64,000 nt of DNA from Bugula neritina (taxonomy: Eukaryota > Bryozoa > Gymnolaemata > Cheilostomatida > Bugulidae): the NCBI GenBank assembly GCA_964035545.1, contig OZ037767.1:13449301-13513300 (forward strand), in the 5' to 3' direction. Within the stretch, counting starts at the first letter, position 1, and each line of letters starts with the position of its first letter. Below the pieces are notes generated by a model. It was given only the letters and a program-made list of their open reading frames with translations, did not search any database and was not told the origin of the DNA. Below, piece after piece: positions 36,385-36,937 of the stretch. The position numbers and the translations under genes are program-made.

Positions 36385-36390
36385 CCTCAA

Positions 36391-36437
36391 TCTGTGGACA
36401 GCAGCTGTTTCGGGGTTTGTCCCCTCATCAGCACAGA
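36391..36437 (-). ncRNA. Type I hammerhead ribozyme, unit 1
   Basis: On the minus strand, helix I pairs TCTGTG (36437-36432) with CACAGA (36396-36391). The core box CTGATGA is 36431-36425. Helix II is GGGG/CCCC (36424-36421 with 36415-36412) with a 5-nt loop. The GAAA box is 36411-36408. Helix III is ACAG/CTGT around a CTG triloop (36408-36405 with 36401-36398). The cleavage site is after C at 36397 (GUC). Every invariant core base is present. Confidence 0.88.
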
Positions 36438-36662
36438 ACAGAGTACCATGGCCCACACCTTCGCAATAGTAGAAACTTATGTTTCTACTAAAGCATATTT
36501 AAAAGGTGTGTAAACTCAAGCCAGAGAGCTCAAGTGACTCTAGGGGTCACCTAGGAGTCACGAGCCTTGCAAAATGCTAGCAGCTTGAGTTTGTGACCAT
36601 GGTGAGAGAGCTCAATCACTGAATGTCATTGCTGAGCATTAAGTGAGAGCATAATACCTCAA

Positions 36663-36709
36663 TCTGTGGACAGCAGCTGTTTCGGGGTTTGTCCCCTCAT
36701 CAGCACAGA
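36663..36709 (-). ncRNA. Type I hammerhead ribozyme, unit 2
   Basis: An identical copy of the ribozyme at 36391-36437, displaced by exactly 272 bases. Predicted cleavage is after the C at 36669. Confidence 0.88.
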
Positions 36710-36937
36710 ACAGAGTACCATGGCCCACACCTTCGCAATAGTAGAAACTTATGTTTCTACTAAAGCATATTTAAAAGGTGTGTAAACTCAAGCCAGAGAG
36801 CTCAAGTGACTCTAGGGGTCACCTAGGAGTCACGAGCCTTGCAAAATGCTAGCAGCTTGAGTTTGTGACCATGGTGAGAGAGCTCAATCACTGAATGTCA
36901 TTGCTGAGCATTAAGTGAGAGCATAATACCTCAATAC

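Follow-up and report, generated by a model that had tools for sequence, protein, structure and literature searches.

The element and its surroundings

The window, that is the whole stretch of 64,000 nucleotides (nt) from Bugula neritina that was analysed, contains two tandem units with predicted type I hammerhead ribozymes (HHRs) on the minus strand, set between two (TA)n tracts. We call this tandem pair the retrozyme. Its units are numbered from the first base past the predicted cut, position 1 being 36668 or 36396, and its 3' and 5' ends are named in the sense of the HHR. The features at the locus, and one repeat found elsewhere in the window, are as follows.

36384..36935, minus strand: retrozyme copy of two units, whose HHR-sense 3' end is at the low coordinate and whose 5' end, at 36935, is unit position 6
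36397..36668, minus strand: single 272-nt unit, bounded by the two predicted cuts
36382..36446, minus strand: type I hammerhead, 3' copy, including extended helix I; predicted cut 36397/36396
36654..36718, minus strand: type I hammerhead, 5' copy, including extended helix I; predicted cut 36669/36668
36269..36384, no strand: (TA)n tract on the HHR-sense 3' side of the retrozyme (Tandem Repeats Finder)
36939..37180, no strand: imperfect (TA)n tract on the HHR-sense 5' side of the retrozyme (Tandem Repeats Finder)
9083-9253, 23276-23358, 30841-31077, 40316-40368, 48710-48940 and 58560-58854: sites of a 12-bp minisatellite

A preliminary description of this DNA had claimed two identical units of 272 bp with cleavage sites exactly 272 nt apart. 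Tandem Repeats Finder returned the same period of 272, with 2.0 copies and 100% matches at 36382-36935, and the two predicted cuts have the same spacing. The unit has a GC content of 45.6%, and it is strongly self-paired as a whole (z -7.35), with none of 200 shuffles being equally good. No stop-to-stop frame of at least 110 codons, the length from which frames were listed, is internal to the element, and one open frame of the TA tract extends to the element edge at 36386. The same description placed the element upstream of its gene D only; this is true at most within the window and fails for the genome, where the element is present hundreds of times.

Elsewhere in the window, similar frames at 21842-22177, 32242-32583 and 42636-42995 gave weak hemicentin-type matches below the Pfam cut-off, as in a tandem gene family. 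The related 12-bp minisatellite, of the TACAGTACACAT / TGTACTGTAGTG type, recurs through the window in both orientations. An open frame of 286 codons at 563-1423 has weak C2H2 matches and a GC content of 47%, most of the window being near 30%, and is perhaps part of another mobile element.

The hammerhead motif and its variation

On the minus strand of both units CTGATGA (starting at 36431 and 36703), GAAA and the GTC cut site are all present. Each unit also has a helix I of 6 bp, a helix II of 4 bp with a 5-nt loop and a helix III of 4 bp with a triloop; the loop features of the HHR in the window are an internal loop in helix I and the 5-nt loop 2. A strict HHR descriptor found two matches in the window, precisely the two units, and none in simulated sequence, which comprised 100 windows from a first-order Markov model (12.8 Mb over both strands). 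With the core and three helices in place, the complete type I hammerhead that had been proposed for both units stands as a predicted motif. The covariance-model check suggested along with it had a different outcome, as Rfam Hammerhead_1 did not report the motif in the window at the gathering score, nor even at E<=10. When the 67-nt motif was folded in isolation, the minimum-free-energy structure at -19.4 kcal/mol was a non-hammerhead fold, and the hammerhead fold came to -16.0 kcal/mol with the extended helix I and -13.2 kcal/mol without the extension. No covariation was found in the HHR among 20 of the 42 motif variants. Our assignment of the motif as a putative hammerhead is based on the motif itself, its repetition and its dispersal, and not on Rfam, energy or covariation.

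Between copies, the HHR region overall is as variable as the remaining unit, with substitutions at 49 of 4317 positions against 148 of 12,715 in the rest. The 14 core positions vary less (6 of 973 substituted, against the same 148 of 12,715 outside the HHR), a hint of selection on the HHR core which is only suggestive. Pairing was counted in 41 of the 42 variants, which had been selected by a pattern that itself includes the core, one of other length being dropped, and was kept in 164 of 164 cells of helix III, 159 of 164 of helix II, 240 of 246 of helix I and 212 of 246 of the helix I extension.

Copies in the genome and their ends

The genome assembly comprises 216 Mb in 295 contigs. About 200 Mb of this is in nine contigs, C1-C9, and the assembly looks near chromosome scale. 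With one unit as query we obtained at least 79 matches in the genome, the best 40 of 706 candidates being scored. Units that are 100% identical and have the top score occur in at least six places on C1, C2, C3 and C9, two of which are the window's own. A 25-nt core with up to two mismatches was present 510 times genome-wide, and its reversed pattern was not found. The search for further copies, which the preliminary description had recommended, was thus clearly positive, and an assembly duplication with no other copies, which it had named as grounds for refutation, is excluded by the hundreds of copies elsewhere. More generally, a satellite or an assembly duplication with a hammerhead-like motif arisen by chance would agree with the identity of the two units and with the silence of Rfam, but it is at odds with hundreds of dispersed copies sharing one fixed end, with the zero descriptor matches in the simulated sequence and with helices that stay paired among 41 variants, albeit variants selected by a core-including pattern. 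Given the dispersed copies genome-wide, we rejected this explanation as highly improbable.

Copies were inspected in two samples, one of 39 further loci (L010-L048) collected by similarity to the whole unit, and one selected by the core (L055-L074), being 20 of the 54 new merged stretches from the 100 core places listed. Arrays reach up to five units. In L013:2501-3508 and L073:341-990 neighbouring retrozyme copies form pairs with the same 5' end, as though a single insertion had later been duplicated locally.

There were two main observations on the ends of the copies. Firstly, the HHR-sense 3' end is fixed and is followed by (TA)n; it is at unit position 13-15, or at 10-11 in a number of older copies. 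It ran into (TA)n in 59 of 60 arrays, the exception being L058; this count omits L074, the copy in L050 and the secondary copies in L011, L025, L029, L030, L043, L047, L060, L072 and L073, and the second copy in L060, outside the count, has an end without TA. Genome-wide there were 366 junctions of the retrozyme 3' end with (TA)n and 100 unit-unit junctions, compared with none in the reversed controls. As a background level, 770 of 17,927 random positions in the same DNA had a TA tract of at least 20 bp no more than 15 bp away. The 5' side meets TA sequence in 50 of the 60 arrays, in some of them only a few bases. Target-site duplications were searched for in the 60 arrays and none was convincing, the matches being short and of low complexity.

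The second observation was that the 5' ends vary; in the core-selected sample they are scattered across the unit, and almost every copy there is of sub-unit length. In arrays of more than one lap, 17 of 28 5' ends were near the HHR, within an arc of 22% of the unit (Rayleigh p 2.9e-4), where the arc around the HHR was chosen after inspection of the data and the 14 arrays close to one lap in length were omitted. Among copies shorter than a unit, only 2 of 23 5' ends were in this arc, a count affected by the fact that core-selected copies cannot show 5' ends past position 238. Four irregular internal joints were inspected, and those in L010 and L037 were within 1-3 nt of the predicted cut, a hint of cleaved templates, while those in L012 and L056 were elsewhere. 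An 8-nt duplication near the cut in L012 was dismissed as ordinary slippage.

Target-primed reverse transcription with an internal start at a TA repeat leaves such a pattern, in which the 3' end is fixed, the 5' ends vary and the flanks are TA repeats. The start lies past the cut, so that a fully cleaved linear unit would yield only about 14 nt of cDNA. A circle or a multimer left uncleaved is therefore the probable template, unless the enzyme passes from one RNA to the next, end to end. The templates could also have been linear oligomeric or read-through transcripts, which the hammerhead processes or ends, circles being irrelevant to the insertion. The preference of multi-lap 5' ends for the HHR neighbourhood (with the post hoc arc) and the joints near the cut in L010 and L037, though not those in L012 and L056, are in line with such linear templates, as is the report that HHR mutants of a lizard Penelope-like element (PLE) left insertion in vitro unaffected (in the experiments described in PMC11167929). 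However, most core-selected copies are shorter than a unit, so multi-unit transcripts could come from a few loci only, and animal retrozymes accumulate as circles in the cases presented in PMC7229834. We regard linear templates as possible but rather doubtful.

The type I HHR, in which helix III is short, the 272-bp unit, the arrays of up to five units and the dispersal over the genome support the filing of the element as a retrozyme. Animal non-LTR retrozymes are described as having type I HHRs, units of about 170-400 nt, GC below 50% and tandem copies (Cervera and de la Pena 2020, PMC7229834). The window element is like them in HHR type, unit size, GC content and dispersed tandem copies, and also, on the account given there, in the strongly self-paired unit RNA and the presence of Penelope-like elements in the same genome (PMC7229834). 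The HHR core and helices, the unit size, GC and arrays, the dispersal, the non-coding nature and the co-resident putative Penelope-like elements were all found here; the observation is real, the filing is right, and the kind is already known. Circle formation and recent mobility would fit this filing. For animal retrozymes expression, cleavage and circles have been demonstrated, with circular expression in coral, mussel and axolotl according to PMC7229834; for the window element they are predicted. The latter differs from animal retrozymes described so in that its 3' end is fixed in (TA)n at 13-15 nt beyond the cut and that many of its copies are of sub-unit length, features of which the portions of PMC7229834 drawn on here give no description. 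Plant LTR retrozymes likewise consist of non-coding units with HHRs, for which movement via circular RNA is assumed, but they are described with type III HHRs, LTRs, a primer binding site, a polypurine tract and 4-bp target duplications (both points as outlined in PMC7761336 and PMC7229834), in contrast to the type I HHR, the (TA)n and the absence of a convincing target duplication in our retrozyme.

Penelope-like elements and the candidate helper

The window also carries a truncated element which we read as Penelope-like, with the following features.

9337..10912, plus strand: truncated Penelope-like element, putative, family A; 92% DNA identity to the family A element in L050
9280-9828 and 10104-10580, plus strand: reverse transcriptase (RT)-like and GIY-YIG-like open stretches, respectively, of this element, by their motifs
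10834..10868, plus strand: degenerate hammerhead of this element, assigned by eye against family A and unmatched by the family patterns
10913..11077, no strand: (TA)n tract taking up the 3' end of this element; junction 10897-10925, with one mismatch

Its RT-like part has at least 150 matches in the genome (150 of 316 candidates scored), and at least 12 of these 150 sit in open frames that are 700-740 codons long. When aligned over their length, five open frames from four families (A to D) share invariant motifs, among them YRDDG and a GIY-YIG-like YxG block, which we take to be those of the RT and GIY-YIG domains. Sequence searches of Pfam, NCBIfam and PDB gave no match to RT or GIY-YIG domains in these putative proteins, and the name Penelope-like is our putative reading of motifs, HHRs and tails. 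HHRs are present in all four families examined, with 3' ends running into (TA)n. Patterns recognized 20 Penelope-like HHRs in the sampled DNA, and 17 were followed by (TA)n, at a distance of 44-57 nt in seven and 98-129 nt in ten (L009, L012, L014, L031, L032, L037, L047 and L049-L054). The other three are in L030, where the element is joined to a retrozyme, in L049, where another copy comes next, and in L038, where TA begins at the cut. Genome-wide, the junctions of tail and (TA)n numbered 86 for family A and 102 for family D, and 0 in the controls. Both tail classes, measured past the cut, occur in each of the four families, as if there were two RT start sites. A genome search with Rfam Hammerhead_1 gave one match below the cut-off, of 25.4 bits, to the family A HHR in L009 (among the best 73 of 15,744 candidates); we gave it no weight, as weak matches also appeared in 11 of 14 control genomes.

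PLEs with minimal type I HHRs resemble our retrozyme in having the HHR shortly upstream of a 3' end in AT-rich or (TA)n DNA, and they differ in encoding an RT and GIY-YIG protein, while the retrozyme has a fuller HHR and no long frame (for the PLEs treated in PMC11167929 and PMC7761336). The tails differ in length as well, being 13-15 nt in the retrozyme against 44-57 or 98-129 nt in the Penelope-like elements of this genome. PLEs have been proposed as helpers of retrozymes from co-occurrence and from the type I HHRs in both (as argued in PMC7229834 and PMC7761336), and for the lizard element, internal RT initiation leaving a tail and cutting of AT-rich DNA were obtained in vitro (in the assays of PMC11167929). 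In the open-licence PMC literature we found no published insertion-site link between the two kinds of elements. Also beyond what the preliminary description could see were the fixing of the 3' end in (TA)n, the loss of 5' sequence in many copies and the anatomy that the retrozyme has in common with Penelope-like elements.

The link between retrozyme and Penelope-like elements in this genome is one of shared anatomy and target, and not of shared sequence or proximity. Comparison of the retrozyme with five Penelope-like sequences gave no significant similarity (best BLAST E 0.12); with neither significant shared sequence nor a long frame, the retrozyme is not itself a Penelope-like element. Beside the TA tracts of retrozymes, Penelope-like DNA shows no enrichment, being present at 3 of 65, compared with 13 of the 59 other TA tracts; an apparent excess of it near retrozymes (15 of 59 loci) was lost in this comparison. 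In L030:2728-3311 a family A sequence is joined directly to a retrozyme in the same sense, with a shared GCTCT and no intervening TA. We did not use this joint as a case of RNA template switching, since an insertion into the TA tract behind the element with a small loss explains it equally well.

Because the ends and the target are shared with the retrozyme, Penelope-like elements are its likely helper, where the comparison of ends covers the retrozyme and four Penelope-like families. The same retrozyme could be copied by a LINE-type or other RT, Penelope-like elements merely sharing a common, insertion-tolerant (TA)n niche, and the missing enrichment beside retrozyme TA tracts and the absence of common sequence would be expected then. 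Against another enzyme, which we consider unlikely, speaks the fact that in both kinds a type I HHR is combined with a short, fixed tail after the cut that leads straight into (TA)n. Our preferred reading, which we hold to be fairly probable, is that the window element is a non-autonomous retrozyme of the animal type moved via TA-primed copying, with the RT of PLEs as the most likely helper.

What was observed directly is that the 3' end is fixed at (TA)n and that the 5' ends vary; the enzyme and the priming step in the following course are inferred. Transcripts of tandem copies would carry type I hammerheads cutting every 272 nt, and the unit-length RNA would be ligated into a circle, as the motif and the published animal retrozymes suggest. 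An RT, with the Penelope-like elements of this genome as its most likely source, would take up a retrozyme RNA and nick a (TA)n microsatellite, the TA end of which may prime on the UAU that lies 13-15 nt beyond the hammerhead cut. Copying would then proceed towards the 5' end of the RNA. Many events would halt within the first lap and give truncated monomers, and one or several laps would give arrays like the copy in the window, possible later sources in their turn. Finally, the far cDNA end would be joined to the other TA flank.

A wider proposal is that animal retrozymes are RNA parasites of PLEs, with an internal start on a TA-primed circle and with the hammerhead fold or cut also setting the cDNA ends of multi-lap copies. 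This we put forward tentatively, as plausible though somewhat short of probable. If true, the hammerhead-plus-tail module would be a shared ticket that gives small circles access to the Penelope-like machinery. To the question of the helper our data add insertion-site evidence: hundreds of retrozyme copies have one fixed 3' end in (TA)n, and the Penelope-like families resemble them in the type of end and in the target. The template, the priming site and the target for a test in vitro are thereby defined.

One fragment of a Penelope-like element deviates from both tail classes. In L038:3048-3108 a family B fragment ends precisely where its own HHR is predicted to cut, with (TA)n following, as if copying had begun at the 3' end of the cleaved RNA.
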